Source: a virus. From it: 25,372 nt of DNA. Positions within the stretch are counted from its first letter, which is position 1. Each line of letters begins with the position of its first letter. The DNA lies in the IMG/VR virus record IMGVR_UViG_3300042507_004436, positions 1 through 25,372 of that record. One strand, given 5' to 3'. A model generated the notes under the pieces. That model made no database searches, had not been told where the DNA came from, and saw nothing but the letters and a program-made list of their open reading frames with translations. Below, piece after piece: positions 1 through 25,372 of this stretch. A program made the position numbers and the translations under genes.

Positions 1-1639
1 TACCACTAGTTGTTTGTGAACTACTAGATGTATAAGTAAACGTATTTTCTGTTGGCACTGTTTGTATAGTAAAAGTACCTGTAGCCGTTGTGCCACTAGC
101 AACAGATGTAACGACTATTGATTGACCTTGACTTAATCCATGCAATGGTAAATCAACAGTAACTGTAGCATTGCCGTTTTGTTGGTATGTGCCTGTTTGA
201 ATTTGTGTGTATGTACCAGTTACAGGAGGTATAACAATAGCTTTACGCAAATCAAATATTGGCTCATCATCAACATAACAAACGTTACTCATTACAATAT
301 AGCGTTTATTGGCAAATCTTTCTCTAAATGGCGTTTTATTCCCAACTTCATCGAAAGCGGTATCCATTTTTTTACCAATACCGTTACCGTGAACAGTTGT
401 AACGCTTGTAATTTCTGCTAAGTTACCAGCAATGTTAAGATATTTAACGCCGTCTGAATCGGTCAATATCTCAATTTTACTGTTAGGATTCGTATCTGTG
501 TTTTTTAATGGCGTAGCAAAGCCTGCTTTATTAGTTACTAAATTACATAATGGATTAGTAAAAATAGTATGGGTACCAGTGCCGCCATTTGCCAACATGA
601 TTTTTTTAGCACCTGCATACAAAAATACACAAGGCAATAACTTTTTAAATGGTACATATCTATGTAATCCATCTACATAAGTACCGCTAGCCTCTGGATA
701 TAATTCAAGCTGTGTATTAGTGGCATTATTAATTGCATAATACCGAGTGTTAGGCTGTAATGTGCCACCACCAACAATACTAGGCATTGTTCCTGTAGAA
801 CTAAAATAAACAGGTACGCCAACTCTGGAAACGCCTGCAGTTTCAATATCTGGTACGGCGTAAGTAAACCCTAGGTTTAGGTTAATGTTCCCTGTGCCTG
901 TATCCACATTAGCACTGGTAAACGTTTGATTAACTTGAGTTGTTACCGTATCGGATGCGTCTACATCGTGGTATGTAATTAACCCTGTTAAACCTGTTAT
1001 AGTAGTAACAGTTAAATCCGCGAACGCATCCAAACTTAATAAACCAGAACCACCTAGCCCACGGTTAATAGCAACTTGCCCAAATGCTTCGAGCATAATA
1101 TGGGTGTTTTGCGTTAAGCCTATTAACACACCCACCATTGCATGGGCGGTAATGATAAAATTAGCTTGCCCTGCTATTGCTTGAGATAATAACACACTAG
1201 CGTACGCATCTAACAACAAGTTTTGAGCTACACTAATACGGTAATCAATCGATAGCATCGCCTGTGCGTCAAACATCAACGCACTTTCAGCCTTTAACCT
1301 GTAAATAACAGGGGAACTGTAAATAAACTGTGAATCGTCTATTACCTCAACTACAATAAACTCACGCCATGTTAATAGCTCGTTATTGGCATATTTTGCA
1401 GTTGCTACAAACCGAACCACATCATCAAATAAAACAGTAGAAGATAAAAGGTTAAAAGTTGCCAACCCTGTTACGTCGTCATAATCAATAGCACCAATAC
1501 CAAACCCAGCCGTATTATGTAAAAATACAGGCGGTTCAATAGGATAGCCACCGTTGTTTAAAGGAAATTGAACTTGTACTTTTCGTACTTCATTTTTCCC
1601 CTTAATAATCTCAAAAACGTCCGAGGATTGGCAACTCAT
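1..1639 (-). CDS. Large tail fibre/appendage protein, 3' end outside window
   Basis: The frame is open from an ATG at 1639 (start MSCQSSDVF) to the left edge, giving 546 residues with no stop, so the C-terminus is missing. AAAGG lies 9 bases before the ATG, and the previous gene stops 5 bases upstream. No enzymatic motif is visible. The first ~110 residues look beta-rich; residues ~130-200 are Ala/Leu-rich with recurring short helical patterns; the rest is Thr/Asn/Gly-rich as in fibres. From ~475 to the edge there is a segment with an HGL motif followed by a T-x-NTFTY motif, matching the FCCH-like (ubiquitin-E1 FCCH fold) repeats common in phage appendages; the neighbouring 209-residue protein carries the same segment. 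Position after J and the fibre gene suggests a distal tail or receptor-binding component. The structural role is inferred from context; I do not recognise the whole protein. Confidence 0.75.
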   Translation of the reverse strand, partial: MSCQSSDVFEIIKGKNEVRKVQVQFPLNNGGYPIEPPVFLHNTAGFGIGAIDYDDVTGLATFNLLSSTVLFDDVVRFVATAKYANNELLTWREFIVVEVIDDSQFIYSSPVIYRLKAESALMFDAQAMLSIDYRISVAQNLLLDAYASVLLSQAIAGQANFIITAHAMVGVLIGLTQNTHIMLEAFGQVAINRGLGGSGLLSLDAFADLTVTTITGLTGLITYHDVDASDTVTTQVNQTFTSANVDTGTGNINLNLGFTYAVPDIETAGVSRVGVPVYFSSTGTMPSIVGGGTLQPNTRYYAINNATNTQLELYPEASGTYVDGLHRYVPFKKLLPCVFLYAGAKKIMLANGGTGTHTIFTNPLCNLVTNKAGFATPLKNTDTNPNSKIEILTDSDGVKYLNIAGNLAEITSVTTVHGNGIGKKMDTAFDEVGNKTPFRERFANKRYIVMSNVCYVDDEPIFDLRKAIVIPPVTGTYTQIQTGTYQQNGNATVTVDLPLHGLSQGQSIVVTSVASGTTATGTFTIQTVPTENTFTYTSSSSQTTSG

Positions 1640-1644
1640 TTTAT

Positions 1645-2274
1645 CTAACCTTTCACACCAAACGTTAAAGCGGATACAGGGAAAGACAAACCACTGTTTG
1701 CATCAACGGTATAGCTTTTGGTTTTGCCATAACGAATATCTGCGTTAGTAATAGTTGCAGAACCAACTACCGCAAACGTAAACGTATTGGTTGTTACGGA
1801 TGCTACTGCGTAGGTCTTATCTGCATTGCCTGTATTAAAGAACCGCACATAAACACTATCAGAGGTCGTTAATCCGTGGGCAGGGCTATTAACAGTAACT
1901 GTTGTACCGCTTTGGCTATAAGTAATCCCATCTACAGGTGTATCAGTGAATGGGAAAGCCATTGCACAAGTACCACCAGTTAATGCAGAAAATAACCCCC
2001 AACCTACAACCGTACCCCAGTTAGCACTAGCCGTTGGGAAGTTTAACGCACCGTTATTAGCTAACTGTGTGAACCCTCTACCAGTTACTGTAGTGTTGCC
2101 ACTAGCTGTTGGGAAACCTGCATCGGATGCTAACCGTGCGTAAGAACCACCTGTTACTTCCGTACCGTTTGAATTTTCAGCGTTCGTTGGCAAGGTAGTA
2201 AATAAGCCTAAATGATAACCAGCATTAACCAGCATATCTAAAATGGTTACATATAAATTTGCAGAAACTGCCAT
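1645..2274 (-). CDS. gp80-like tail structural protein with FCCH-like domain
   Basis: This 209-residue protein starts at an ATG that shares one base with the stop of the 43-residue gene before it (TAATG). The segment at residues 39-46 (EVTGGSYA) and the following FPTAS and WGTVVGWGLF strings fit the phage gp80/tail-fibre-like structural family, in which a TG-EV-GGSYAR motif is followed by a F-PxA and W-G-V pattern. Residues about 117-175 form an FCCH-like segment (HGL at 133-135, TNTFTF at 162-167) that is repeated in the next gene. There is an internal near-duplication around residues 45-62 and 70-85. It is probably a minor tail or fibre-attachment protein; the exact place in the virion is unknown. 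Confidence 0.7.
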   Translation of the reverse strand: MAVSANLYVTILDMLVNAGYHLGLFTTLPTNAENSNGTEVTGGSYARLASDAGFPTASGNTTVTGRGFTQLANNGALNFPTASANWGTVVGWGLFSALTGGTCAMAFPFTDTPVDGITYSQSGTTVTVNSPAHGLTTSDSVYVRFFNTGNADKTYAVASVTTNTFTFAVVGSATITNADIRYGKTKSYTVDANSGLSFPVSALTFGVKG

Positions 2275-2405
2275 TATGTAATCTCTCCCTCTGTAAATGA
2301 TAAAGTAATTAAATTAACAGGTAGTTCAAGTGCTATTACCTCCTGTTCTAGTGGTAATGCAATCGTCGTATCTGGTAATTCAAGTGTGATAACGTCTGTT
2401 GCCAT
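2274..2405 (-). CDS. 43-residue beta-repeat protein
   Basis: A short gene of 43 residues plus stop: ATG at 2405, TAA at 2276-2274 overlapping the next ATG by one base. AAAGG sits 7 bases upstream of the ATG. The protein begins MATDVITLELPDTTIALPLE and then repeats the same alternating pattern (VIALELPVNLITL), so it contains about four short hydrophobic beta-like strings of the form I-x-L-x-L-P. The tight coupling to the gp80-like gene and the good ribosome binding site argue for real translation. I do not recognise a family. A small tail-fibre or tail-tip accessory that adds a beta strand to a partner is a plausible but unproven role. Confidence 0.65.
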   Translation of the reverse strand: MATDVITLELPDTTIALPLEQEVIALELPVNLITLSFTEGEIT

Positions 2406-2461
2406 AGTAATACCTTTAACTGTTTTTAGTATACATTATTTAAAATATATTTTATTTTTAC
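2406..2461 (-). other. AT-rich spacer with a palindrome and a weak -10-like box
   Basis: This 56-base gap is the largest between tail genes. It is almost pure A/T and contains a perfect 12-base palindrome at 2442-2453 (AAAATATATTTT). A TATACT hexamer on the minus strand at 2433-2428 resembles a -10 box, but I see no convincing -35 at 16-18 bases. It could hold a weak promoter for the distal fibre genes, or be a recombination seam between fibre modules. Neither is shown. Confidence 0.25.
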
Positions 2462-3955
2462 CTACAACCAGAAGTTAGTAAAACTACATCTAAATTCTCT
2501 AACGCCAATATGTGCAGAAGTTACGTTATTTGCAAATCGCATACGCCGAGATGTTACAGGAAATAACGGTGTTTGCGATGTATCTGAACTGTTTGTCGCC
2601 CAAGGGAAACTTTCAGTTGTATAAGCACCCGAGCCGTTAAAGGTTTCAACCCCTATAATCATGTTTGAACTACTTGCTCCTTTAATGTGTAAACCTACCG
2701 CTTCCACTTCAGGAGGGACTAACCACATTGGTTGACCACTTAGAGTAACATTCATACAAGCAAGATTTTCAATATAGAAAGAAGAACTATAACCTTTGTT
2801 ATACGAAACTAACGTAGGGGCATTTGTGCCATTATTTGACCCAGCCCCAAGGTTGATGTTATTCGGGAAACGGCTAATGTAGGTAATAATTGGATTATTC
2901 CCACCATCACGCCCCCAATTACTAACCAAATGCTCAATAAATGCACCTTCTCTGCCACTGCCCGTAATATCTGTTATGCTTCCAGAACCATTTGTATAAG
3001 TAGCATTTGGCGGATACGTTGCACACGACCACGGTAACAATCTACGCCATGTGTAACCTGTAGGCATCGTTGGAGCGGTGTTGCTTGCACTAAACAAACC
3101 AGCCAAAGTGCCGTCGTTTTTTCCAATCAGCCATAAATAATACATCTGACCACTTACTCGTGTTGCATCAATACTACCAGCTACGCCTACTGTGCCATTA
3201 TTAGCAATGGTTAGGTTGCTACCATAAAACTGTTGATAAGCACTTGTTGTAGGGTTAAATAACGTTGCTTGTATTGTTCCGTTTATCTTAACTTCAAACA
3301 AATTGCTAGCTGTTTGTACAGGCTTAGGAATTGACTCATACCCAAACGGTTTACCGCCCTGTAATGCTAAAAACCCATCATTAACAGTAACAGAATCATC
3401 AAAGGTTTTGTTGCCTGTAAACGTATAAGTACCTGTAAAGGGTGCTGTGGTACTTTCTAAAACAATTCTATCTGTCCATAACGTACCATTATTTAACGTT
3501 GTTCTTGCTCTTAACTTTTGGTTGGTATAAGAATAAATTAGTTGGTCAAACGTACTAGCATCTCTTTTTACCATTAACACAAACCCATTACCGTTTAATG
3601 AGTTATTGCTAGTAGACGTTGTAATTCTATAAATACCTGTATTACCTGTGCTGTTTAAATTATCACTTGGTAACAAAGGGGCTGTTGTGCCAATGCCTGT
3701 ACCCGATAATATCTCGTTTACAAACGTGGTTAATGAACGGTCTAATGGAAACAAGTCAATCCATGCTGTGTTAGCACCATTGCGTAACTTTAATAGGCTT
3801 GTATTAGTATCTGCCCATACCTGTAATGCTACAGGTGATGCAGGAGCGGTGTTGCCACTACTCATAGTTGCTAAGGCTTGTACAATAGCGTTAATATCAA
3901 TGGTATAATCTATACCACTCTGACTTGCACTTAAGTTTAAATCTGCTTGAGCCAT
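2462..3955 (-). CDS. Tail fibre protein
   Basis: This is a 497-residue protein with a strong ribosome binding site (AAAGGAGGG, 6 bases before ATG). The N-terminal ~75 residues contain the fibre-head pattern with IDINAIVQAL near 20-30 and LQVWADT followed by LKLRNGANTAWIDL near 44-68, which is seen at the start of many phage fibre proteins. The middle contains TGTYTFTGNKTF-type text common in trimeric fibre shafts, and the C-terminal half is Gly/Asn/Ser/Thr-rich. It lies directly behind J, the usual place for side or central fibre genes, and is likely to contact the host surface. Family recognition rests on the N-terminus; the receptor-binding half is not assignable by eye. Confidence 0.75.
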   Translation of the reverse strand: MAQADLNLSASQSGIDYTIDINAIVQALATMSSGNTAPASPVALQVWADTNTSLLKLRNGANTAWIDLFPLDRSLTTFVNEILSGTGIGTTAPLLPSDNLNSTGNTGIYRITTSTSNNSLNGNGFVLMVKRDASTFDQLIYSYTNQKLRARTTLNNGTLWTDRIVLESTTAPFTGTYTFTGNKTFDDSVTVNDGFLALQGGKPFGYESIPKPVQTASNLFEVKINGTIQATLFNPTTSAYQQFYGSNLTIANNGTVGVAGSIDATRVSGQMYYLWLIGKNDGTLAGLFSASNTAPTMPTGYTWRRLLPWSCATYPPNATYTNGSGSITDITGSGREGAFIEHLVSNWGRDGGNNPIITYISRFPNNINLGAGSNNGTNAPTLVSYNKGYSSSFYIENLACMNVTLSGQPMWLVPPEVEAVGLHIKGASSSNMIIGVETFNGSGAYTTESFPWATNSSDTSQTPLFPVTSRRMRFANNVTSAHIGVREFRCSFTNFWL

Positions 3956-3977
3956 AATAAGCCCTCCTTTAAAATTA

Positions 3978-6900
3978 TTATAACTGCTTGCCGTAACCCC
4001 TTGCTATCCAGTTAATTGTTCTAGCAACCGACACATTACTTGCATCAAATACTTGAACGTCAAAACTGCTAGACGTTTGGTTTTGTATCTTAATATATTC
4101 CCCAGCTTGTAAGTTTGAGCCTGTTACGTTGACCGCAGGCGTTGCTTTAAACGGTGTTCCATAAGTGATAGTATTCCACCCTGTAGTCAAACTAACACTT
4201 TGTTTAGACTCAAACCTATCTGGCATATCACACGTTACACTTAATTTAGTAACCCGTGGTATTTTACTTTGCAAGAAAGAACGCAATACTAATCTAAACT
4301 TAAACGCCCTTGCCCGATACTCTCCCACAATAAATGTTTTCCACGGTGAATAAGATACCGCATCTTCACTAGTAGAGAATTGCAATTCTAGCATCCCTTC
4401 GGTGTATTCAATAAAACCTACAGATGCAATAGAATCTACTGTATCAATGCTTGTAACATTGCCCATTATATCTGATTCTGCCGTTGCTAATGTTGTTTCG
4501 GCACTAACATCTGGTATAAAGGCAACCCAGCTATCAATATCACCCATGATGTATTCAAGTACACTGGTTAAACGGCTTACATAAATATCGCCTAAATCTA
4601 TTGCATTATCAAATTCATAAAACGCCGTATCTTCTACTAATGGGTTACTCATGTATAAAATATCACCAGTTGCCGTAACACCTGTTTTAACACCATCGAA
4701 TGTAGGGCTTTCTGTGATGATTTCAACAATGTTAATATTTACGTCGGGGGCTTCAAACGTGATTCTAGTTGCAGGAATATTGCTATACGCACCGTAAAAA
4801 TCAATCGCTTTTATGAAAAATGTACCATCTAAATATGGAATGGTTATTTCATTTAATGTAGGGTCAACCGTTGTGTATAATTGAGTTAATGCCCACTGTG
4901 TATTAGTTTTAGATTGACTAAACCGTATTTCATACCCAGCTAAATCGGTATCTTCTACTTTATCCCATGTAAAGGTTAATTCTGTACCTTTTAAAATGTA
5001 GTTAAAATTCTGCACGTTTGCAGGAGCAACGTTATTAGCGGAAAAATCTAATGTTGCAAAAACGCTACCACCCGATACAAAATTACCTAAAATAACCTGT
5101 TCTGCATCTACTTGTATTTTTAAAACATCCTCGGGGATATTCTCAATGGTAAAGCTAGATGTGCTAGTACGCCCAGCTAATGTATACGCAATCGAACTAG
5201 CCGTTTTGTAATAAACACTATACTGCCTAACTCGACTATCGGGGCTTGGTGTCCATGAGACAAGCAAGTTTTTAATCAAGATATTGTTTACCTTGGTAAA
5301 GAACCCATTACCTGTGATATTGCTATGTAAAATAATATCTTGCCCTTGCAACGTCGTTAATGTTTTTTGGCTAACAATACCCTTATCGATTCTATCGTAC
5401 TTCCCAGCGTCATACTCAATACCTGTTATTTTGTATTGAAATTTTGCATCCCCTGTTAATTCTGTTTTGCTTGTAACGTAAAATTCCCTAGGAGCAATGT
5501 TACTAGCAATAATGCCCCATACGTTATTAACCACTGGCTGATTAACCGTAATTTTAGATGGTAACTTAACCCATTCTTGCAAACCATAGGCTAATACCCC
5601 GTCTGCATCACATGGCGTACAGTCATAGGTTGTAATAGTATTGTCTGGTAGATTAATACTAATTTTGTATGTTTCCGTGTTTAAAAAAGTAATTGGAAAA
5701 TCTAACCGTATTGCACTAAACCCTGTAGCATTAAAGTTTTGTACAAACGCTTTTATTCTGCCACTCATACGGATTTTAGCGTATGCAGGGTCATAGATAC
5801 CGATAACATCGCCTATGACTAAATCTGAACCATCTAAGCCCACTGTAAATTCAACTTGGGTGTACTGATTCTTCAATGAGTCTAACAACCACTTACCAAA
5901 GCGTCTGGCTTGCCCTTCACTGGTAATACCGACACCATCGATAGAACTAACATTGTACCCAAAGATGTTAATTAAATAAGGGTCTTCCACCGTAACAACA
6001 TCTTGTTTATATAGGTTTTTAGGGTCATTATACGTTACACTAACCACGCTATATGCTTCATCTGAACCAGCGGTGGAATAATCAAATATACTCCCTACAA
6101 CGTTAGCCTGTGAAAAAATAGCCGTCATTGTTTTAGGCTTGTCTATGGCTAAACGAATAATGCCATTACTGCTGTATACTGAACCATGAAACACATTTGC
6201 TACCTTACCAAGCGTAGAGTAAAAGCTATCAGTGTTAGCAAACCAATAGTTAAACGTATACCGTGGCTCTAATGCCTTTGTACCAGCTACAGGCACTAGC
6301 TCATCGCAATACTTAGCAATATCGTAAAAATCGAACTTATCCACTTGGCTTTCATCGATGAATTGCCCACCGCCGTACCGTGCGTTAGTTAATAAATCAT
6401 ACAATACCCATGCAGGGTTATTTGTCCACGCTCTTGTAAACGCCCCATCCCAGTAACCTAAACTTTCATCATACGTCCGTTTAATTGGGTCGTAGTTACT
6501 TGGTATTTTAACTTCTAACAAATCTAACAAATACCCACGTTTCGGGATATTATTCCCAAACAAAGAAGCATCTACTTTTAACCCAGCTACTACTGTGTTT
6601 GAATAGTTTATTTTAGTCTCAATGCCTTCAACATAGCTTGTCCAATACGTTTCGTCTTGTTTTGTGCCATTAAACGCATCGTTATTAGCTAGTTTTGTAA
6701 CTCTAATATCCCAAGGGCTACCACCGTTGTTTTTAGGCAATGGCACAAGGTATTCACGTTCAAAAGATGATGCTGTACGTCCATCAATTACTAACGATGA
6801 GTCTACCAGCTCATACACTGCTGATACAACCCATCCTACAGGCGGTATAATCTTATATTGACCTTGTGCTAAGCCTATTATTTCATCGTCAATACCATAA

Positions 6901-7655
6901 TACAAAGCATATTGGTTTTGCGTTGATACGCCGTTGTTTTCCATTTTTAGGTTGCTTGGTATTAGCTGTGGTGTAGCATTATTAAAGCTATACTTGGTTG
7001 GTTGCACATCATAAACAATCGGCGTTACTGTGCCACTTGGTAATAACTGATACGTTACTGTAGCAGACTCAACATTATCTAACATAAAAATATCACTAGG
7101 GTTTGATACTTTTTTAGTTAAAATAACCCTAAAACCAGTACTTGTAGCAGTGGTAACATACCCACCGCTTGATTGTGCTAATCCACGCCATTGTTTAGCA
7201 ATCGTTTTATACCCTGTCCCATTTTCGTTTACTTCAATGTTTAGCCTTACCCAGTTGTTTAGCACATTGCCGTTATTATCCTGTGCCTGTAACCCAGATA
7301 AGCCTATTTTAATTCTAAGATAATCCGCCTCGGGGTTTGTAACCGTTCTAACCACTGGCTCTCTATCGTTTAATAAAACACCCACCTCTTGAATGGTCTC
7401 TACCCCTTGGAAGCCTTGCATTAGCTCTTGGTCGGGTGTGCCTAAGCGGTAATCTACTTCAATCCCTTTGAAATTGAACGTGCCATTATTAGCCTGTAAT
7501 GGTGTTTCATCAAAATAAACACTATTCAAGCCATTAACTAACCCTTTTATTTTGCCTTCACAAATTGCCTCGGTTATCCTAGCCACGTTATTAGAAACAA
7601 GGCTAATAGGAGCGGTTGTAGGCGTGCTTTGTTTTTTTTGTCCACCAAAACCCAT
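3978..7655 (-). CDS. J: Tail tip attachment protein (lambda gpJ-like central fibre)
   Basis: At 1225 residues it is close to lambda gpJ (about 1130). The N-terminus has the J hallmark: ITEAICEGKIKGL (from about residue 27) followed by VYFDETPL. The region RVVT-type 'VVRTVTNPEADYLRIKI' and later 'AWVLYDLLTNARYGGG' (around 410-430) are also J-like. Two fibronectin-III-like segments are visible near 795-880 (LVSWTPSPDSRVRQYSVYY) and 885-980 (FTWDKVEDTDLAGYEI). The last ~75 residues (from SVSLTTGW) resemble a small beta-sandwich tip domain ending in INWIARGYG. It starts 2 bases after the I gene stop. In this family the protein forms the trimeric tip hub and binds the receptor. Identification is firm; receptor specificity cannot be read. 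Confidence 0.93.
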   Translation of the reverse strand: MGFGGQKKQSTPTTAPISLVSNNVARITEAICEGKIKGLVNGLNSVYFDETPLQANNGTFNFKGIEVDYRLGTPDQELMQGFQGVETIQEVGVLLNDREPVVRTVTNPEADYLRIKIGLSGLQAQDNNGNVLNNWVRLNIEVNENGTGYKTIAKQWRGLAQSSGGYVTTATSTGFRVILTKKVSNPSDIFMLDNVESATVTYQLLPSGTVTPIVYDVQPTKYSFNNATPQLIPSNLKMENNGVSTQNQYALYYGIDDEIIGLAQGQYKIIPPVGWVVSAVYELVDSSLVIDGRTASSFEREYLVPLPKNNGGSPWDIRVTKLANNDAFNGTKQDETYWTSYVEGIETKINYSNTVVAGLKVDASLFGNNIPKRGYLLDLLEVKIPSNYDPIKRTYDESLGYWDGAFTRAWTNNPAWVLYDLLTNARYGGGQFIDESQVDKFDFYDIAKYCDELVPVAGTKALEPRYTFNYWFANTDSFYSTLGKVANVFHGSVYSSNGIIRLAIDKPKTMTAIFSQANVVGSIFDYSTAGSDEAYSVVSVTYNDPKNLYKQDVVTVEDPYLINIFGYNVSSIDGVGITSEGQARRFGKWLLDSLKNQYTQVEFTVGLDGSDLVIGDVIGIYDPAYAKIRMSGRIKAFVQNFNATGFSAIRLDFPITFLNTETYKISINLPDNTITTYDCTPCDADGVLAYGLQEWVKLPSKITVNQPVVNNVWGIIASNIAPREFYVTSKTELTGDAKFQYKITGIEYDAGKYDRIDKGIVSQKTLTTLQGQDIILHSNITGNGFFTKVNNILIKNLLVSWTPSPDSRVRQYSVYYKTASSIAYTLAGRTSTSSFTIENIPEDVLKIQVDAEQVILGNFVSGGSVFATLDFSANNVAPANVQNFNYILKGTELTFTWDKVEDTDLAGYEIRFSQSKTNTQWALTQLYTTVDPTLNEITIPYLDGTFFIKAIDFYGAYSNIPATRITFEAPDVNINIVEIITESPTFDGVKTGVTATGDILYMSNPLVEDTAFYEFDNAIDLGDIYVSRLTSVLEYIMGDIDSWVAFIPDVSAETTLATAESDIMGNVTSIDTVDSIASVGFIEYTEGMLELQFSTSEDAVSYSPWKTFIVGEYRARAFKFRLVLRSFLQSKIPRVTKLSVTCDMPDRFESKQSVSLTTGWNTITYGTPFKATPAVNVTGSNLQAGEYIKIQNQTSSSFDVQVFDASNVSVARTINWIARGYGKQL

Positions 7656-7657
7656 TA

Positions 7658-8248
7658 CTATACATCCTCGGCTCTAATTGATTGACTAATAACGTTTGAA
7701 CCGCACATAAACCGCCCATAACCTACAGGTAATGGTATGCCCTTAGCTACACGGTTTGTAGCATTAGAAAATAATGTACTTTGCCTATCTTCTGGCTTAT
7801 CTGACTCATTCTGTTTATTTTTCAATGCTTGTAAATCTGCAAACCCAGAGACTGCTAAGCGAACACCACCCATAATAAATTGAAATCCTAAAGCAGCACC
7901 TGCCCCAGTGGCAATTAAGACAACCCCAACAATCACCATTTGTATACCAGTAATTATTTTAATCCATGCCCCGAATTTACCACCAGCCCCTATACCTTCA
8001 AGGGGTACAATATGTACCTCTGTTGCATCGCTTGGTATTAGTTGTTTAAAATCGCTGTCATTACTAATTAAATCGTGTTTTAATTCATTGGCGTAGGTTA
8101 CATGGTAACATCCTGTTTTAAGAATGCTTTTCATAGCAGGAAACGCTCTTAATAAGTAAGATATGACTTGATGAAATGAATCTACTTCAAGTGTTATACT
8201 CTGCTTAAATTGCTTTAGCTTACCATGTAAAACAACCGTTATTCTCAT
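7658..8248 (-). CDS. I: Tail assembly protein I
   Basis: The 196-residue protein fits lambda gpI in size and layout. The N-terminal ~85 residues look ubiquitin-like (start MRITVVLHGKL, ending VHIVPLEG). Residues about 95-135 are a Gly/Ala-rich hydrophobic stretch (IVGVVLIATGAGAALGF), and the C-terminus has the conserved string NRVAKGIPLPVGYGRFMCGS. Its ATG shares one base with the K stop (TAATG). In lambda, gpI is needed for tail-tip assembly and is not retained in the mature virion. The hydrophobic segment could transiently associate with tape measure or membrane, but that is inference. Confidence 0.9.
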   Translation of the reverse strand: MRITVVLHGKLKQFKQSITLEVDSFHQVISYLLRAFPAMKSILKTGCYHVTYANELKHDLISNDSDFKQLIPSDATEVHIVPLEGIGAGGKFGAWIKIITGIQMVIVGVVLIATGAGAALGFQFIMGGVRLAVSGFADLQALKNKQNESDKPEDRQSTLFSNATNRVAKGIPLPVGYGRFMCGSNVISQSIRAEDV

Positions 8249-8967: not shown

Positions 8968-8968
8968 A

Positions 8969-16194: not shown

Positions 16195-16199
16195 ATAAA

Positions 16200-16228: not shown

Positions 16229-16241
16229 ATTTAAGGATAAA

Positions 16242-17294: not shown

Positions 17295-17309
17295 TAAAAC
17301 TCTCCCTTA

Positions 17310-17690: not shown

Positions 17691-17692
17691 AA

Positions 17693-18310
17693 TTAAACGC
17701 CTCCTTGAGCTTTTAATGCTTTTTGTTTTTCAGCTTTTAACGCTTTTTCATAATCAACTTTTTTCTTTTTACCACCAGCTAACGGCATTTCATCTGCATC
17801 AGAATCAGCAGAACAAGCCATCTTACTTTTAGGTTTTGCACCCAAAGAAATAGCCACCTTGTCTACTTTATCCTGCATGGATTTTAAGGCACTAACAATC
17901 ACGTCGTTACCTTTACCGTTAGCCAATAAAACAGGCAATAACTCTGCTTTTACTTCATCCGACAAAGTAATTTCAGAGAGTTGTGTTTCAATTTCTGCCT
18001 TGCGTTGGGATGTTTGGATAGCTTCAAGTTGTACTTTAAGCTCCCCTACTTCACGCTCTGCTTTTACCTTAGCTTCTGCTAATTCCTGTACAATGACCGC
18101 ACTTTTAGCATCTAATGCACTTAATACCGTTTCAACAGTAACAGGCGTTGGCTCTGGTTCTTGCTTTACTTCTGCCTTTTTTTCTAATTCAGAAAGTTGC
18201 AAGGCAATCGCTTCTTTTTCTTTTGCTAGCGTTTCATTGCTAGCTTGCAAAGTGGACAACTTGGCTTCAAGCTCCTCGATGCGTTGTAATTGCTCTTTTG
18301 TTGCCGTCAT
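17693..18310 (-). CDS. Nested in-frame scaffold protein (internal start)
   Basis: An ATG at codon 185 of the protease gene has GGAGG exactly 5 bases upstream, as strong a binding site as any in the window. Translation from here would give a 205-residue protein (MTATKEQLQRIEELEAKL...) made of the coiled coil and Lys-rich tail without protease. The start lies just at the border between the two domains. This is the arrangement of lambda C/Nu3 and other phages, where the free scaffold outnumbers the protease fusion. Expression is inferred from sequence only. Confidence 0.78.
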   Translation of the reverse strand: MTATKEQLQRIEELEAKLSTLQASNETLAKEKEAIALQLSELEKKAEVKQEPEPTPVTVETVLSALDAKSAVIVQELAEAKVKAEREVGELKVQLEAIQTSQRKAEIETQLSEITLSDEVKAELLPVLLANGKGNDVIVSALKSMQDKVDKVAISLGAKPKSKMACSADSDADEMPLAGGKKKKVDYEKALKAEKQKALKAQGGV

Positions 18311-18862
18311 AGTATCCTCCGATGACAGTTGAGTAACTAATGAAACCGTGCTTAATGGGTTTGCAGGAGCAACCACTAAGCTAAGTTCGTTGATAACTAA
18401 ATTGGTTACAAGCCGTACGTCTTGTGGTTCGGCGTTCGGGTCTTCCAATGCACGCTCTAACTCTTGTTCGCTAGATACAATCTGCATTGTTCCGCCAAGG
18501 CTTAATCCGTTAATACATCCTGTTTGCACAACCTCCCATGCTGTTTCGTCTTCTACTTCAATTTCAACCATCCAACCTTCTGTACAGGTATCAATACCCA
18601 TACTCCTAGCAATTTCAGCATTAAGCATAAAGGACTGTACAATTTTGCCACGCACAGGAGCGTCTAACGACTCATGCTGTAATTGCACACGCCCAGATTC
18701 TTCGGTAAATTGCTTAACCGCTTTTGCTAGAACATCAAAAGGGATATATCCGCCTTTGCTATCAATAACAGGAACGCCGTACTGCTTGGTAACATTTCCC
18801 CAGCCGTAAACGGTATTCTTTTTATTGTTTACTGATGCGTTTAATGTAATATCTGTTTGCAT
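17693..18862 (-). CDS. Capsid maturation protease fused to scaffold (XkdF-like)
   Basis: The 389-residue protein has two parts. Residues ~17-170 fit the XkdF-like prohead serine protease: YGWGNVTKQYG at 19-29, H63 in QLQHE, S121 in GLSLGG and E159 in INELSLV, the last three being the likely catalytic set or near it. Residues ~188-330 are a Glu/Lys/Ala-rich coiled coil typical of a scaffold, and the tail is Lys-rich (KKKKVDYEKALKAEKQK), probably binding the coat. GGGAGG is 5 bases before ATG. Such fusions assemble inside the procapsid, then digest the scaffold. An internal start at codon 185 probably makes the scaffold alone. Catalytic roles are inferred from motif position. Confidence 0.86.
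   Translation of the reverse strand: MQTDITLNASVNNKKNTVYGWGNVTKQYGVPVIDSKGGYIPFDVLAKAVKQFTEESGRVQLQHESLDAPVRGKIVQSFMLNAEIARSMGIDTCTEGWMVEIEVEDETAWEVVQTGCINGLSLGGTMQIVSSEQELERALEDPNAEPQDVRLVTNLVINELSLVVAPANPLSTVSLVTQLSSEDTMTATKEQLQRIEELEAKLSTLQASNETLAKEKEAIALQLSELEKKAEVKQEPEPTPVTVETVLSALDAKSAVIVQELAEAKVKAEREVGELKVQLEAIQTSQRKAEIETQLSEITLSDEVKAELLPVLLANGKGNDVIVSALKSMQDKVDKVAISLGAKPKSKMACSADSDADEMPLAGGKKKKVDYEKALKAEKQKALKAQGGV
18316..18320 (-). promoter_or_regulatory. Internal Shine-Dalgarno for the nested scaffold
   Basis: On the minus strand GGAGG is followed by ATACT and then ATG at 18310. It falls in the codons for Ser-Glu-Asp, where other codons could have avoided it, at the protease/scaffold domain border. 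Confidence 0.75.
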
Positions 18863-18888
18863 AGCAACCTCCCATGCTAAAAGTTTAT

Positions 18889-18902
18889 CATTTTTAAAAA
18901 TG
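18889..18902. repeat. 14-base AT palindrome in the gap before the protease gene
   Basis: CATTTTTAAAAATG is a perfect palindrome in the 52-base gap between the gpF-like and protease genes. It has no GC stem and no -35/-10 pair near it. I see no clear function. Confidence 0.3.
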
Positions 18903-18914
18903 GCGTGCTTTTTA

Positions 18915-19895
18915 CTACATAAACGCCTCTGGTTGCAAACGGTAAATTAAACAACATCGGCAATTTACCGTGTTCTTTGCAGGAGCGGATGGGTCATGTG
19001 GATACATGATGTTTCCGTAGATACTTTGGAACGGCTCGTTAATCTGCCTACCATCTTTATTCATGCTTGGTAGGCTTAAATGGGCGTGCCTTGTTCTGCC
19101 GTCTGCTTTTGGCAACCAGAACTTTTTATAATCATTGCGTCCTATTCTACCTTCCGCTATGGCATTTTCGTACAAGTGCTGATTTGCCATATTTACCATG
19201 CGTAAAGATTCGGTTCTAGCGATTGTTTCCGCACGGTACTTAAGCATACGTTGCCTGTACCGCTCCACCATCTTTTCTATTTTGTCATCCGTTAAATCTA
19301 CTTTATTTTTGATGCTGTTTAAAACGCTTGAGTCGTACCTTTTATCACGCAAGGCACGGTTTAACGCTTGACGGCTTCCATCTCTCAAATTCTTCTCATA
19401 ATTAGCTAGTGCGGTTTGTTGTGGTGTCGTTAGTCCGATATTATTTACTATATTTGTAGCTGTAACTCGTGGGTTAATACCAGCAATACTTCCATCTTTT
19501 ACCGCTTTACTGATACCTTCAATAATGGCTTGCGTTTCGTTGGTAATTAACTCATTTGTCCATGTATCGACAATCTTTACCAATTCGGGGTTTACTTGAT
19601 TAAAATAAACGCCTGAAATATCTAGTTTCTTGGCTAATGCGTTGCCAGCCGTGGTGTAGGTATCAATGATGCTATTCTTTACCACCGTTAATTCACTCAA
19701 TAGCTCGCCTTGCTGTAATGCTGTCATGGTTTCTAACGGCAAGCCTTGGGTGATAATCGCCTCAAGTTCTGCAACATTCACGGTACTTTTTATGTTTTTA
19801 ACCGCCAACAAATAAGCCAAAATAATCGCTCGTTCATGCTTATTGGCTGTTTTTAATAGCTCGTCTTGTTGTTCACGGTCTTTTTTGCTAACCAT
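18915..19895 (-). CDS. Head morphogenesis protein (Mu gpF / SPP1 gp7-like)
   Basis: A 326-residue minor head protein. The C-terminal third has the full family signature: YRAETIARTES near 218-228, then DGRTRHAHLSLP near 265-276, and NTVNCRCCL close to the end. AGAGG lies 7 bases upstream of the ATG. In this family the protein binds the portal, is present in few copies in the head and can be involved in early DNA delivery. It usually follows the portal gene directly; here the methyltransferase and a 78-base portal-like remnant lie between. The N-terminal ~210 residues are helical. Confidence 0.9.
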   Translation of the reverse strand: MVSKKDREQQDELLKTANKHERAIILAYLLAVKNIKSTVNVAELEAIITQGLPLETMTALQQGELLSELTVVKNSIIDTYTTAGNALAKKLDISGVYFNQVNPELVKIVDTWTNELITNETQAIIEGISKAVKDGSIAGINPRVTATNIVNNIGLTTPQQTALANYEKNLRDGSRQALNRALRDKRYDSSVLNSIKNKVDLTDDKIEKMVERYRQRMLKYRAETIARTESLRMVNMANQHLYENAIAEGRIGRNDYKKFWLPKADGRTRHAHLSLPSMNKDGRQINEPFQSIYGNIMYPHDPSAPAKNTVNCRCCLIYRLQPEAFM

Positions 19896-19897
19896 GA

Positions 19898-19975
19898 TTA
19901 AACCTCTAATGTTAATTGCTTACGGCTTGCTAAACTTTGTGCGTGTTTAATCCGTGCCTCTGCTATGGTTACATC
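19898..19975 (-). pseudogene. Orphan 25-codon stretch, probably the severed C-terminus of the portal
   Basis: Directly behind the methyltransferase stop, in the same frame, 25 sense codons run to a TAA two bases before the gpF-like ATG. The peptide includes IAEARIKHAQSLASRKQL and ends TLEV, an amphipathic helical tail. There is no start codon or ribosome binding site for it. Mu gp29/DUF935-type portals end in an Ala/Arg-rich helix of this kind, whereas the portal here ends abruptly after TDTERELNNGV at the methyltransferase start. The simplest reading is that insertion of the methyltransferase cut the end off the portal gene and left it behind. It also contains the binding site for the next gene. 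The portal origin is inferred. Confidence 0.55.
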
Positions 19976-20893
19976 CTAAAATTTTATATGTTCTGAAATA
20001 ACACTTATTAGCTGTTTACAATAATCGACATGATTCCACCCCTCCAATTTACATACCAATTCGTCATGGTTTAAATCGCACTTCAATTTGTTAATCATTT
20101 GCTTTCTTGCAAGCAAATGTAGTTCTAATGCGTCAATAGGCGTTTTTTGTGTTTGGTTGGCTTGAACATATAAATTAACTGATAAAACCCCATTATTTTT
20201 TAAAACTTCTTTTATTGATACTGTGGTTTTTTTATTTAAAACTAAGTCTTCAAAAATAATTCCTTCGGCTTGGTTGTGCTTTTCTAAAATTAGAATAGTT
20301 GTTTCTATTGCGGTGTCTGTAAATTGTTTAGCTGGAATCCTAACAACACGCTTGATATAATTTTTCTCTATTAGCCATTTTCTAATTTCCCCCTCTTTAT
20401 TACCTCTGTATAAAATACCAGGGAAACAAACTATTACTGCCGTACCTTCATCATGCAATAAATGAATGCAATGAGCTATAAAAGCGTAATCTGCTTTTGA
20501 AGCAGGAGGCAAACAAGGTAATACTAAAAACCTAGGGTCTTGCATGATAGGTGAAGGAGGTTGCCACCTAATGGAAAACGGATAATTTGCTACAATTGCC
20601 CTAAAACGTTTATCCATAAAGGCAGGAGCTTCTAAAGTATCCCCAGCTATGCCAGTAAAGTTTGAAAGCCGTTTTTCAGCATCTTTCAACTGTTGACAAT
20701 CTAATTCTTGCCCATATTTATTTATTTCATCACCAAAAACTGAAAGTAACCCGCCATTGCCACAAGTTGGGTCGTACACTTCTATTGGTTGTTGGGGTAA
20801 ATAACTTTTAACAAGTTCCGCCAAAGCTGTTTCTGTATAAAAAACACCCTTTTCTTTGAATTGTTGTTTTATTGCCTTTAAATTAAACTCCAT
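19976..20893 (-). CDS. Orphan HsdM-like N6-adenine DNA methyltransferase
   Basis: This 305-residue protein has the gamma-class order of motifs: motif X (KGVFYTETALAELV, 15-28), motif I (DPTCGNGGLL, 41-50) for S-adenosylmethionine, and motif IV (NYPF, 103-106). The later string FPGILYRGNKEGEIRKWLIE and the TAIETTILILEK segment are typical of type I modification subunits. Motif IV normally reads NPPF/Y; the first Pro is Tyr here. No HsdS or HsdR gene is nearby. The start overlaps the portal stop by 11 bases and uses AGAGAG about 7 bases upstream. Sampled lines are ~30% GC against ~47% in flanking genes, which suggests recent transfer. It probably modifies phage DNA against host restriction; target unknown. 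Confidence 0.85.
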   Translation of the reverse strand: MEFNLKAIKQQFKEKGVFYTETALAELVKSYLPQQPIEVYDPTCGNGGLLSVFGDEINKYGQELDCQQLKDAEKRLSNFTGIAGDTLEAPAFMDKRFRAIVANYPFSIRWQPPSPIMQDPRFLVLPCLPPASKADYAFIAHCIHLLHDEGTAVIVCFPGILYRGNKEGEIRKWLIEKNYIKRVVRIPAKQFTDTAIETTILILEKHNQAEGIIFEDLVLNKKTTVSIKEVLKNNGVLSVNLYVQANQTQKTPIDALELHLLARKQMINKLKCDLNHDELVCKLEGWNHVDYCKQLISVISEHIKF

Positions 20894-22184
20894 TATTCAA
20901 CTCTCTTTCAGTGTCGGTCAACTCTGGTAAGCCTGCGTAACTTCTCAAATACTCCTCTGTTTTAGGGTCATTCACCAAAATACCAGAATTGGATAAGGCA
21001 TTGATATAATTAGCCATAGCATCTAGTGATAGGTCTACGTTATCGCTCGTCAACGTGGGTATCATATCAAATGGCATACCGTTCAATTCCCATATAGGCT
21101 TTACAATTTGATGGTAAAACTCGTTGCAGAAATCCTGCTTGATACCATCCATCCAAGACTTAAACGTGGAGCTTTTCTCACGGCTCAAAGCATAACTACC
21201 GCCGTGTGTTCCATTACTTCCCAATAGCAAGAAATCGGCATACAACGCTTGGGCGATTATTTCATTTTCACGCCTGATTAAAGCGGTCGTATCAAATGCC
21301 TTTTGACCGTTGATAGAGGCAATTTCAAAATCATTGGCTTTTGTTGATGTAAAAGTGCCGTCGGGGTCTGAATGGGGAGCAGATGGTAGAACAATACCAC
21401 TCATTCTGTTAAAATCTGCTTGGCTTACAAACGCCTCTGCTGCTTGTTTACGCTTAACCACATCCTCTTTGCTTCCGCTTACGTTGTCATACCGTAGGAT
21501 GTTGACACCTTCCATCGTTCGCCGTAACTGGATGGTTTCACGCCCCATAATCCTGTTTTTGTGGATGTAATTCTTAAAAACGGCTTTCAACATAGAATGC
21601 CCATACACGTTCTGTGAATTGTTGGGCTTGCCTTGTATATAAAAGCATCGGGAAAGCGGTATTTTTTCCGCATACATTTTGCTGTGGAAGCCTTGTAGCT
21701 TCCTATCTTCGTAGTAGGCATCTAGGCTAATTTGTGGGTGGAAAATTAAATCGTCTAATTCATATCCTGTTTCGCCAGCCCTTAACTGCAATTCGTAAAC
21801 AGAAAAACCAACTAGATAGGTGGATACAAACGTTCCCATAATCTGGTTAAACGAGCCATTCTCCCAATCAAGGAACATCTTAGTAGCAATGTCGGCATAT
21901 TCGCCCGTGGTGTCGTTTTCGTTTGGCTTAATTGTAAAAGTAACCTGCTGTAAAACATGGGTTACCAGCGTTTGAAAAGCACGGCTTACATGGCAATCTT
22001 CCAGCATATTGTAGAAGTTAATTACCCATTCTTTCGGTGTAAATTCTGGCAACAAATTAGCGTCGGCAGAAAACCAGTTGGTGCGATTGTACACCATTGA
22101 GTATTCGTTGCCAGTAAATTGTGGGCGTTCAATTTGTGTAGCTTCTTTTAAATCTTTTCGGGTCAACCGTTGTTTTTTCGACAT
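20883..22184 (-). CDS. Portal protein (DUF935/Mu gp29-like)
   Basis: The 433-residue protein lies directly after the large terminase, with the ATG sharing one base with its stop (TAATG). Features are a stem-like middle with WENGSFNQIMGTFVSTYLVG and GFSVYELQ near 110-132, IHKNRIMGRETIQLRRTMEG near 210-228, and a C-terminal helical region with DFCNEFYHQIVKPIWELNG near 355-372, which fits the Mu gp29-like portal group. It forms the dodecameric DNA gate at the capsid vertex. The C-terminus looks short: it stops after TDTERELNNGV exactly at the methyltransferase start, and a helical tail-like stretch lies behind that gene at 19975-19898. Confidence 0.87.
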   Translation of the reverse strand: MSKKQRLTRKDLKEATQIERPQFTGNEYSMVYNRTNWFSADANLLPEFTPKEWVINFYNMLEDCHVSRAFQTLVTHVLQQVTFTIKPNENDTTGEYADIATKMFLDWENGSFNQIMGTFVSTYLVGFSVYELQLRAGETGYELDDLIFHPQISLDAYYEDRKLQGFHSKMYAEKIPLSRCFYIQGKPNNSQNVYGHSMLKAVFKNYIHKNRIMGRETIQLRRTMEGVNILRYDNVSGSKEDVVKRKQAAEAFVSQADFNRMSGIVLPSAPHSDPDGTFTSTKANDFEIASINGQKAFDTTALIRRENEIIAQALYADFLLLGSNGTHGGSYALSREKSSTFKSWMDGIKQDFCNEFYHQIVKPIWELNGMPFDMIPTLTSDNVDLSLDAMANYINALSNSGILVNDPKTEEYLRSYAGLPELTDTERELNNGV

Positions 22185-23698
22185 TAGAAAAATGCTCCTG
22201 TAAAATCTAAATCCCCACTGGTGTAGGTTTGCCGTCTTGATAGCTTGTACTCGACAAATTGCGTCATTGCGTCTACCAAGTCATCGTGTTTAGCCATCGG
22301 GAAACTAAGTGCTTGGGTGATTAAAGTACTGATGACTGGCACGTCTTTACAGAATTGTAGCACGTTTTGTTCAAGGCGATAACTGCACGCCCTCGCACGG
22401 CTCTCTTTGCTTTCTTTTGGTGATATAGCAATGATGTTGTTAAGTGATTCACCGTTTTTCGTGAGGCTGTCTCGCAACACGTTAATAATTGCCGAACCGT
22501 TGGCTTTATCTTCAATCAGAAAATCAGTGGGGCTATGTTTAACAATCATTTCCTTCAGCATCTCAAGCGTTTTAATAAAATCAAGGCGTTTGTTGATACC
22601 GTCCACGCAGTACCATGTTCCCCGATGCTTTGCAAAAACCAAACAAGCTACAAAGTCGCTCGTTACCGTGTCCTTAAACGTGGCATCAAGGCTTATTGTT
22701 ACTTCTGTAGCGTTTAGCATAATCTCCGCTGTGCTAATTTCCGCAAGCCTGAACATATCTTTTTTAAAAATCAAACCTTCCGCAGGGGCAGGGCGTTGTT
22801 GCAGTTGAGCGGAAGCGTCTTGAGTCGATAGCCCATCTTGTGCATCAAATCCGCTTTTTCGCTCCGCTATCCAATCGTGGGAAAACCGTTCCGCCCAGAG
22901 TAGCTCCCCATCTTTTTTCCGTGGGTCAACAAACCCGATGTTGGAAACGCAGGGCGTGGGATGGTCTGATTCATATTCAGCAGGGAAGCATAGTACATTG
23001 TACCGCTCCCTTAATTTTTGCGTGGCTAAAATCTTGCCCACAACATCGTCCTCATGCAGTCGTTGCATCACCAGAATAACCCCAGCCTGTTGTCCAGTTC
23101 CCCTAGTCATAAACGTACCTGTATACCACCGCCACGCTCTATCTCTTTCCGCTTTGCTGTAAACCTTTGTTGCCTGTATGGGGTCGTCGCAAATCAGCAA
23201 ATCAGCATCTTTACCAGTACCACCGCTGGTAGTAATAGCCAACCGCTTACCCTTTCGGGTGTTGTCATATTCCGACTTTGCCCATTGGCTCGTTGACGGC
23301 TTCACGATATGCCCGAAAAGCTCTTGATACTTTTCGCTAGCAATTAACGCTCTGGTTTTCTCTGAAAAACCGTGAGATAGCGTCTCGTCTACCGATGCTG
23401 TTAGTTGCCGTCGGGACGGTGTGGTGAGCCAGTCCCACGCTGGATAGAAAACGTTTACGATGATACTCTTAGCGTGCCTTGGCGGTAACATGATGATTAA
23501 CCGCTCTATTCGCTTATCGCTAACCGCTTCTAAATGCTCGCAAATTGCCTTGATATGCCAGTTGTCCATGAAAGGGGAAGCGTCGACGGTATTCCAGAAG
23601 TACTTTACGAACTCATAGAGGCTTTTTGGCAACCGTTCACGCAGAACTTGCCGTATAGCCTCTTTCCATTCGTCTTTGCTCATGGCTACGCTATTCAA
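22184..23698 (-). CDS. Terminase large subunit
   Basis: The 504-residue packaging motor has all key motifs. The ATPase domain shows the Walker A variant PPRHAKS (72-78), Walker B LLICDDP (168-173, D171/D172) and a VILVMQRLHEDD motif near 207-218. The nuclease domain shows ISLDATFKD near 333, FLIEDKANGSA near 380-390, and HDDLVDA near 472, giving three acidic metal-binding positions. I keep the TTG start at 23698: AGAGGT lies 5 bases upstream and the previous stop is one base before it, whereas the first ATG (23683) has no binding site. It hydrolyses ATP to translocate DNA through the portal and cuts the concatemer. Confidence 0.95.
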   Translation of the reverse strand: MNSVAMSKDEWKEAIRQVLRERLPKSLYEFVKYFWNTVDASPFMDNWHIKAICEHLEAVSDKRIERLIIMLPPRHAKSIIVNVFYPAWDWLTTPSRRQLTASVDETLSHGFSEKTRALIASEKYQELFGHIVKPSTSQWAKSEYDNTRKGKRLAITTSGGTGKDADLLICDDPIQATKVYSKAERDRAWRWYTGTFMTRGTGQQAGVILVMQRLHEDDVVGKILATQKLRERYNVLCFPAEYESDHPTPCVSNIGFVDPRKKDGELLWAERFSHDWIAERKSGFDAQDGLSTQDASAQLQQRPAPAEGLIFKKDMFRLAEISTAEIMLNATEVTISLDATFKDTVTSDFVACLVFAKHRGTWYCVDGINKRLDFIKTLEMLKEMIVKHSPTDFLIEDKANGSAIINVLRDSLTKNGESLNNIIAISPKESKESRARACSYRLEQNVLQFCKDVPVISTLITQALSFPMAKHDDLVDAMTQFVEYKLSRRQTYTSGDLDFTGAFF

Positions 23699-23699
23699 G

Positions 23700-24017
23700 C
23701 TATACCTCTATTAAATAGTAAAGCGTTGGGTTGCCAACCGTTCTAATTGCCAGCACCTTTTCCCAGCCGTTACCGCAGTTTATTTCGTCATTAACCGTTG
23801 GGGCTTTTGAAAACGTAGCAATAATAACTGCTTTTGTAATTGGGCTATACGTTTGACTTAACAAAAACTTGCTTAATGAGCGATAGCCAAGCCCAGCAGT
23901 ATCCTTGCTAGTGCTTTCCACGTCATCACCAGACGGTGAATAGGTCGGCGTTGTAACGCTCCGCAATACCGTTTTTACGCCGTTACGCTTAAGAATTGAA
24001 GCAACATTGCTATTCAT
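23700..24017 (-). CDS. Probable head closure (stopper) protein
   Basis: A 105-residue protein with AAGGA 6 bases before the ATG. An N-terminal helix and TVLRSVTTPTYSPSGDD are followed by a C-terminal beta part: APTVNDEINCGNGWEKVLAI and then YYLIEV. The order 'vtl-r ... tp--gD-i--g---y-v--v ... y-v-v' is that of small head-completion stoppers (SPP1 gp16/HK97-type head-tail connectors). These close the portal channel after packaging and dock the tail terminator. They normally lie after the capsid gene; here it is placed just before the large terminase. No clear sequence family is recognised, so this is a pattern-based call. Confidence 0.5.
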   Translation of the reverse strand: MNSNVASILKRNGVKTVLRSVTTPTYSPSGDDVESTSKDTAGLGYRSLSKFLLSQTYSPITKAVIIATFSKAPTVNDEINCGNGWEKVLAIRTVGNPTLYYLIEV

Positions 24018-24018
24018 G

Positions 24019-24441
24019 TTAAGTCCTTATCCATGCAGAGTAATTGCTAGCGTTGCTACAATCATTTAATCGCCCGACGTGTTCGCTAACGCTTGTCCCA
24101 GTGAATGAGAACGGTATCGGCGTATCGTCCTGTGGCTCGCTTGGGAGCTTTGGCATTGAGCCGTCCCGTTCCATATCTGAAAAAACACGCTGTAACGACT
24201 GGTATTTTTTCGCCATATCGCCCCACGTTACAGTTAGCCCTTCCACTTGCTCGCTTTGGGGCTTTGCGGAAGCCTTGGCAATCAAGGCAACACACAGAAA
24301 ATTAAGCACCTTGCCCATGCTGTCGCCATACAATCGCAGGGCGTTGCTTATCTCAAAATCACTGAAAGTCTCAGGGCATTCAGTGTCCTGTAGCAGAAAA
24401 CGGATTAAATCCTTGTGCGTGCCAAGTGATTCGCTATACAT
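24019..24441 (-). CDS. Probable head-tail adaptor protein
   Basis: I choose the ATG at 24441 (140 residues, MYSESLGTHKDLIRFLL), which overlaps the previous stop by 8 bases; the longer frame from 24468 would overlap by 35. The layout LIRFLLQDTE, FSDFEISNALRLYG, then an Ala-rich helix LNFLCVALIAKASAKPQ and WGDMAKKYQSL matches head-tail adaptors (gp6/gp15-like): helix, 'fsD-eI---L', Ala-rich helix, and a final Y-L helix. These form a ring beneath the portal. The C-terminal third (from about residue 90) is Pro/Ser-rich and probably flexible. The neighbouring probable stopper supports the assignment. The family match is by pattern only. Confidence 0.5.
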   Translation of the reverse strand: MYSESLGTHKDLIRFLLQDTECPETFSDFEISNALRLYGDSMGKVLNFLCVALIAKASAKPQSEQVEGLTVTWGDMAKKYQSLQRVFSDMERDGSMPKLPSEPQDDTPIPFSFTGTSVSEHVGRLNDCSNASNYSAWIRT

Positions 24442-24814
24442 TATCCACCGCCTTAGCAGGTCTTCCACGTTTTTTGGGTGTTTCCGCTTGTTCTTGCTCT
24501 ACAGGGGGTTGCTCTAATACCTGAACGTCCTCTTCCGTGGCTTGTTGGGCTTCCTGTTGCGGTGTTTCTAGGCTCGCCACGCCGTCTTGTTGGTATGGGT
24601 AGGGTAAGCCTTTGGCTCTGCATTCTTCGATAAGCACCCAGTCGTACCCCTCAAGCGGTTCGTTCTGCAAAGCGTCGTGATTTTGCAGGATTCGGAACTG
24701 GTCGTAAAAATAGGGCGTTGCACAGTGGGCAGGCAACCGTTGCCCCTTGTCAAACCCCATCATCGTTTTTTTTAAGTAAACACCCCGAAAAATAAGGGCT
24801 TCAAATCCGTTCAT
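24434..24814 (-). CDS. Unrecognised protein with AT-hook-like C-terminus
   Basis: A 126-residue protein with a folded-looking N-terminal part (to ~80; MNGFEALIFRGVYLKK, then GYDWVLIEECRAKGLPYPYQ), a Gln/Glu-rich linker (about 84-112) and a C-terminal KKRGRPAKAVDNV. GRP flanked by basic residues is the core of the AT-hook, which binds the minor groove of AT-rich DNA. AAGGAG lies about 8 bases before the ATG. It sits between terminase subunit genes and could help packaging or be a neck protein with a flexible tail; the function is not known. Confidence 0.6.
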   Translation of the reverse strand: MNGFEALIFRGVYLKKTMMGFDKGQRLPAHCATPYFYDQFRILQNHDALQNEPLEGYDWVLIEECRAKGLPYPYQQDGVASLETPQQEAQQATEEDVQVLEQPPVEQEQAETPKKRGRPAKAVDNV

Positions 24815-24817
24815 GTT

Positions 24818-25222
24818 TCAATCTCCTTTATGTTGTATAGTGTAATACTCTGGCACGCCTTCAATTATACCACCTTTGTAATGTGCTACAATGCTAACAG
24901 TATTCGGCAGTACACACACCCCATGCTTTTTAAGCTCCACCCGATTAACGGCGGTTAAATCGGCATGAGCCACGGCTGTAGCGATGCTAGCAGTTGGAGC
25001 TGTTACCTGTTTTGCGTAGGCTACTACCATTTGTAGCCCTTCAATGACTTCCTCGGCGTGTTCTGTCAAAAAATCAGCAGTCAGGTATTTGTTGTGTAGC
25101 ACGGTTTCTAACTGCAAAAAATCAGCTGGCAACAGGCGGTATCCACTGTGTACGCCCATTGATAACAAATTTATAGCACTATTCCATTTCTGTAGTAACG
25201 TTTCGTTTTTTATGTACCCCAC
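24818..25222 (-). CDS. Unrecognised 134-residue protein, GTG start
   Basis: The gene starts with GTG at 25222; GGAGGG, made by the last codons of the preceding gene, lies 6 bases upstream. The protein has a mainly helical N-terminal two thirds (LQLETVLHNKYLTADFLTEH, then VIEGLQMVVAYAKQV) and a beta-like C-terminal part ending EYYTIQHKGD. No motif is recognised. It lies between the small terminase and the AT-hook-like gene, with overlapping or very short spacings, so it belongs to the same late unit. Confidence 0.6.
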   Translation of the reverse strand: MGYIKNETLLQKWNSAINLLSMGVHSGYRLLPADFLQLETVLHNKYLTADFLTEHAEEVIEGLQMVVAYAKQVTAPTASIATAVAHADLTAVNRVELKKHGVCVLPNTVSIVAHYKGGIIEGVPEYYTIQHKGD

Positions 25223-25225
25223 AAA

Positions 25226-25372
25226 CTACCCTCCGCTGTGATGGTCGGCGTTTTCCTGCTTCTTGATACTCGCTTCAATTTGTGTAAGTTCTTCAATCGT
25301 TAGTTTTTTCAATGGGGAAGTATCCAGCTGTAGATTGCCCGATACTTCTGTTTTTGCGTCGACCTTGATGTT
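25226..25372 (-). CDS. Probable terminase small subunit, C-terminal end
   Basis: The frame is open from the right edge for 48 codons to a TAG at 25228-25226; the N-terminus is outside the window. The visible end has KVDAKTEVSGNLQLDTSPL, then KKLTIEELTQIEASIKKQEN, in which a 'L-KLT-EEL--IE--I-K' helix at the very C-terminus after a VDAK-x-EV linker is common in phage small terminases (DNA recognition and packaging initiation). The GGAGGG near its stop acts as binding site for the next gene. Position upstream of the large terminase fits, though four genes lie between. The identification is from a short tail and remains moderate. Confidence 0.55.
   Translation of the reverse strand, partial: NIKVDAKTEVSGNLQLDTSPLKKLTIEELTQIEASIKKQENADHHSGG

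Follow-up and report, generated by a model that had tools for sequence, protein, structure and literature searches.

Loss of GATC, GGCC, CCGG, GCGC and further restriction-type words from the head and tail module of an uncultured siphophage

Gene content of the window and words missing from it

The window, that is, the whole stretch of 25,372 nucleotides that was analysed (positions 1-25372 of IMG/VR record IMGVR_UViG_3300042507_004436), carries the head and tail module of a siphophage, with all main genes on the minus strand, and predicted minus-strand genes cover about 98% of it. These include genes for terminase, portal, MuF-like, protease, capsid and lambda-like tail proteins; the window is a fragment of the genome of an uncultured tailed phage, and a comparison with 50,697 phage records rendered no close nucleotide match. 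The terminase large subunit gene (22184-23698, minus strand) was used for finding relatives, and two distal tail/fibre genes (2-2274, minus strand; one at 2-1639, open-ended, the other at 1645-2274) have homologues, likewise ordered, in the lineage that is called C below. Between the portal gene (20883-22184, minus strand) as left neighbour and the MuF-like head morphogenesis gene (18915-19895, minus strand) as right neighbour lies a slot holding a methyltransferase gene, here called alpha (19976-20893, minus strand; N6_Mtase, PF02384; phrog_6380; HsdM-like), and, directly downstream of it, the 3' remnant of another, here called beta (19899-19968, minus strand; PF01555, with the motif DPPY), which is present intact in the same slot of the near-identical contig L002.

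A string search found no copy of GATC, GGCC, CCGG or GCGC in the window, as an earlier note had reported from reading the sequence by eye. That note also gave a single CGCG, which was found again, although at 1019-1022 and not at 1018-1024, and expected about 90 copies of GATC and 35-40 of each GC-only palindrome, in line with zero-order values of 89 for GATC and 38 each for GGCC, CCGG, GCGC and CGCG. The Markov-model check on tetramer palindromes that it had suggested, run at maximal order from trinucleotides, gives 56, 54, 37, 36 and 23 expected copies of GATC, GGCC, CCGG, GCGC and CGCG, respectively. Two shuffles of 300 runs each were also used as null models. In the synonymous codon shuffle, in which codons are swapped between sites encoding the same amino acid and both protein and codon usage are kept, the means for the five words in this order were 47, 33, 40, 35 and 23, and the lowest values 34, 16, 26, 21 and 11. 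In the strict shuffle, in which codons are swapped only among positions that have the same flanking bases too, the means were 24.7, 27.9, 26.6, 32.2 and 15.8, and the lowest values 13, 15, 14, 18 and 7. The absence persists therefore in the strict shuffle, and control palindromes remain near its expectation (observed vs expected: CTAG, 78 vs 66; GTAC, 93 vs 97; CATG, 54 vs 56; TTAA, 272 vs 271), which bears out the earlier argument that low GC alone is insufficient.

The four palindromes singled out in the earlier note are truly missing, but they do not complete the list, since many more words are depleted in the window relative to the strict shuffle. These are CCWGG (1 vs 9.9 expected), GCNGC (6 vs 33), GTSAC (0 vs 17), CTSAG, equivalent to CTCAG on either strand (1 vs 20), GTTAAC (0 vs 15), ATTAAT (3 vs 19), CAATTG (1 vs 17), AAGCTT (0 vs 13) and GGWCC (0 vs 6.8). 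Six-base palindromes that lack the five tetramer cores amount to 197 where 345 are expected, while non-palindromic six-mers occur at expectation. Not all palindromes are affected, CTAG, GTAC, CATG, TTAA, GANTC and GTWAC showing no depletion, and CTCAG is among the depleted words in spite of being non-palindromic. In a direct contrast of S- and W-centred 5-mers, which behave oppositely, GTSAC was observed 0 times for 11 expected and GTWAC 87 times for 76 expected; the loss of the former together with the retention of the latter is the kind of word specificity expected of an enzyme. Thus, with composition and coding controlled, the words lie far below expectation, and the depletion is confined to restriction-type words, generally known as targets of Type II enzymes, other palindromes being spared.

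Avoidance in three phage lineages

Close relatives of the window were found in other metagenomes (L001, L002 and L019), which are 92-97% identical to it in nucleotide sequence over the aligned stretches and show the same avoidance profile; window and close relatives are referred to as lineage A. A sister lineage, B, comprises L017, L018, L020-L031 and L063 as well as the 42-kb G001; L017 and L018, which were compared in full, have the same gene order as the window, with 34-69% amino acid identity in most genes. In lineage B GGCC, CCGG, GCGC and CGCG are nearly gone, whereas GATC is kept at about half its expectation and GTSAC is found at expectation (47/47 and 57/59, observed/expected). The avoidance runs along the whole length of G001, where it is less complete for GCGC (16/96). 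A non-palindromic word, CCATC, is also depleted in lineage B (9/74 in G001 and 10/58 in G002) and is not among the words most depleted in A or C; this suggests an additional host-specific enzyme.

Lineage C (L016, L046-L049, L065 and the 37-kb G007) is largely unrelated. Its terminase, portal, capsid and tail differ from those of the window, and the only matches to window proteins are the methyltransferase (97% identity in L016) and the two distal tail genes, for which the window proteins show 27% and 43% amino acid identity to L051:4554-5180 and L051:3959-4546, respectively. Nevertheless, G007 has 1 GATC for 84 expected and 1 GTSAC for 18 expected, and the other words avoided in the window are gone from it too. 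The correlation with the window of over- and under-representation of 4- and 5-mers is r = 0.89 for lineage C but 0.74-0.77 for lineage B, and between A and C it falls to 0.45 when the avoided words are left out. Removal of GATC and of GTSAC coincide, both having taken place in A and C and neither in B. That C is closer to A than the sister lineage B is implies that ancestry alone does not determine the profile, and the difference of B in GATC and GTSAC within the same gene order indicates that avoidance can shift while gene order is conserved. A shared host environment would be the natural reading of the match between A and C, the hosts being surmised from the shared tail genes and methyltransferase alleles.

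Broad avoidance is not unique to these lineages, since 12 of 108 further sequences not in the listed family, each 4 kb or longer, eliminate at least four tetramer palindromes, in a comparison set that is biased, consisting mostly of carriers of beta-type methyltransferases and including the late-found members L063 and L065. A different fingerprint was seen in L073, L074, L136 and L137, other uncultured phages, which eliminate AGCT, GATC and GGCC plus TCGA or ACGT. L066 is a mosaic, with early genes about 93% identical in amino acid sequence to those of G001 and head genes related to lineage C, and its avoidance is weaker (GGCC, 2/56; GCGC, 9/55).

The avoidance appears to extend to the protein level. 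Codons for Trp-Pro always read TGGCCN and always create GGCC, and this dipeptide is missing from the proteins of the window, G001 and G007, in which 3.0, 4.6 and 4.5 copies are expected (about 12 in total), while the reverse, Pro-Trp, occurs 4, 3 and 6 times. In a phage without GGCC avoidance, Ma-LMM01 of Microcystis, Trp-Pro is found 9 times for 9.0 expected, and two GGCC avoiders, Mic1 and A-4L, also have none. Since the numbers are low and A and B have a common ancestry, the loss of Trp-Pro is taken as supporting an action of GGCC avoidance on protein sequence; no report of such a loss was found in a literature search.

A slot with alternating methyltransferases

The alpha (PF02384) and beta (PF01555) genes alternate in one slot among the head genes across lineages A, B and C. 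L002, which is the same phage as the window (ca. 92% nucleotide identity), carries an intact beta there (L002:2766-3992), and L001 carries beta too, cut by the end of the contig. In lineage C, L016 has alpha fused in frame to a beta remnant (L016:3349-4344), and L048 an intact beta (L048:3397-4758); in lineage B, alpha is found in L017 and L018 and beta in L029 and L063. The alpha gene of L016 is 98.8% identical in nucleotide sequence to that of the window over the gene, within a shared tract at 19899-20894 of the window, and, as judged from these sequences, a methyltransferase gene has demonstrably been exchanged between the lineage of the window and lineage C. In the beta gene of L047 (L047:3061-4062, identical in L046 and L052) a 1-kb in-frame insert, assigned by eye as intein-like, was observed, which begins CLSEDTEI and ends VPTGAFVARRNGKIFITGN before S. 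Another reading frame of this insert runs uninterrupted through about 300 codons and shows similarity to an HNH endonuclease (a weak match to PF13392, just below the cut-off).

The best matches are phrog_6380 for alpha and phrog_67 for beta. Methyltransferase activity of alpha is uncertain: its motif IV is NYPF in L016 and the window but NPPF in L017 and L018, and between the alleles of L016 and the window there are 8 nonsynonymous and 3 synonymous codon differences. Both families comprise adenine-N6 or cytosine-N4 methyltransferases, so that 5-methylcytosine is not an expected product. A comparison of the window (alpha) with L001 (beta) over 4.5 kb revealed no motif that was avoided in the presence of only one of the two alleles, and avoidance is the same whichever allele is present. 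Acquired methyltransferases are also found in lactococcal phages of the 936 type, where they are reported to protect against restriction endonucleases (PMC4190342); what differs here is that the two alternating alleles come from different Pfam families, share one slot among the head genes and do so in three lineages.

Restriction as the probable cause, and the host

We consider it very probable that the palindromes missing from the window, together with at least six further words, have been removed by selection against cleavage by several Type II restriction-modification systems of the host or hosts. Counter-selection by several restriction enzymes, already the interpretation of the earlier note, is now strongly supported by the shuffles, the word specificity, the differences between lineages and the sharing with an unrelated one. 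Each unmodified site would represent a chance of cleavage on entry into a host, and synonymous mutations destroying sites would be favoured until almost none was left; sites beyond the reach of synonymous change, such as TGGCCN for Trp-Pro, would be avoided at the protein level, and the methyltransferase in the exchangeable slot would probably protect a target that avoidance has not removed. The agents would be Type II enzymes whose targets are exactly these words, and we infer a protective role of the methyltransferases and a host shared by lineages A and C.

Among other causes, it is improbable, though less so than for those that follow, that GATC in particular was lost through mismatch repair of the Dam/MutH type and the other words through restriction. 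In phiX174, which completely lacks GATC, the absence has been linked to the avoidance of mismatch repair (PMC5014478), but such repair cannot account for GGCC, CCGG, GCGC, CGCG, CCWGG, GCNGC and GTSAC, and the joint loss of GATC and GTSAC in A and C and not in B fits shared restriction-modification systems better. A nuclease or modification enzyme of the phage itself, as the methyltransferases of the window and its relatives might suggest, is very unlikely to drive the avoidance in place of host restriction: the genes examined in the window and the larger genes of the 42-kb G001 yielded no recognisable restriction-type nuclease, avoidance is independent of the allele, and protection by a methyltransferase would ease the pressure for avoidance instead of bringing it about. 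The sequences of these lineages all come from IMG/VR contigs assembled from metagenomes, so that an artefact of library preparation or assembly, such as the use of four-base cutters or the breaking of contigs at the sites, had to be weighed. It has next to no probability and is ruled out by contigs with other profiles from the same metagenomes, since L074 (3300037189) drops ACGT, AGCT, GATC and GGCC and L016, from the same sample, a different set, and L038 (3300010354) shows no depletion of GATC (61/62) or GCGC (15/14); moreover, GATC is present in lineage B, and six-base words and Trp-Pro are also affected. Rarity due to base composition, codon bias or CpG bias alone, for which the 39.5% GC and the CpG within CCGG, GCGC and CGCG could speak, is scarcely conceivable and is ruled out by both shuffles, the words remaining absent against null models in which protein, codon usage and the bases at codon junctions are fixed, with CpG-containing ACGT (86 vs 100) and TCGA (22 vs 26) near expectation and GGCC and GATC devoid of CpG.

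Restriction by the host remains therefore the preferred cause, and the elimination of short Type II sites is known from the avoidance that Rusinov et al. (2018, PMC6286503) described for phages. The phenomenon is of a known kind, but the case is unusually broad and well controlled; compared with the avoidance described in that work, at least 10 words are nearly gone at once, and the fingerprint is repeated in an otherwise unrelated lineage.

The hosts proposed in the earlier note, Moraxella or Haemophilus, are far less well supported than the restriction part of that interpretation. Haemophilus fits poorly, as judged from one temperate phage, HP1, whose fingerprint is unlike that of the window, only CCGG being dropped (1/57; GCGC, 89/135; GATC, 71/113). 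The Moraxella phage Mcat1 (KR093625) has, as the window does, GGCC, CCGG, GCGC and CGCG depleted, and GATC less so, but it differs in having eliminated ACGT (0/77), a word retained in the window, and largely keeps GTSAC, GCNGC and CTCAG, all three depleted in the window. Depletion of GGCC, CGCG, CCWGG, GGWCC and GATC is common to the window, Mcat1 and the Microcystis phage Mic1 (MN013189), which, unlike the window, does not eliminate GTSAC or CTCAG. Moraxella fits therefore in part, and no better than Mic1 does, the profile correlations with the window being 0.65 for Mcat1, 0.63 for Mic1, 0.54 for HP1 and 0.32 for Psychrobacter phage Psymv2. None of the fingerprints of phages from Microcystis, Planktothrix, Anabaena, Aphanizomenon, Haemophilus, Helicobacter, Psychrobacter and Moraxella was a full match, and scans of genome contigs with the portal and major tail protein found no relative.

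It is about as likely as not that lineages A, B and C have in common a host group with many restriction-modification systems and a single pool of anti-restriction genes, and that they have purged about 10 words independently, to the point of losing Trp-Pro, while swapping two methyltransferases through one slot. If this were true, hosts shared by uncultured phages could be recognised from the fingerprint alone. Restriction-site avoidance is well known, yet it has seldom been seen with this breadth and with such clean controls. The methyltransferase slot suggests that avoidance and modification are used side by side, and the missing Trp-Pro is a sign that restriction can act on the sequence of proteins as well as on codon choice. 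Moreover, to judge by the contrast of A and C with B in GATC and GTSAC, avoidance would seem to reflect the particular enzymes encountered and not ancestry; the fingerprint could help to assign hosts to uncultured phages.
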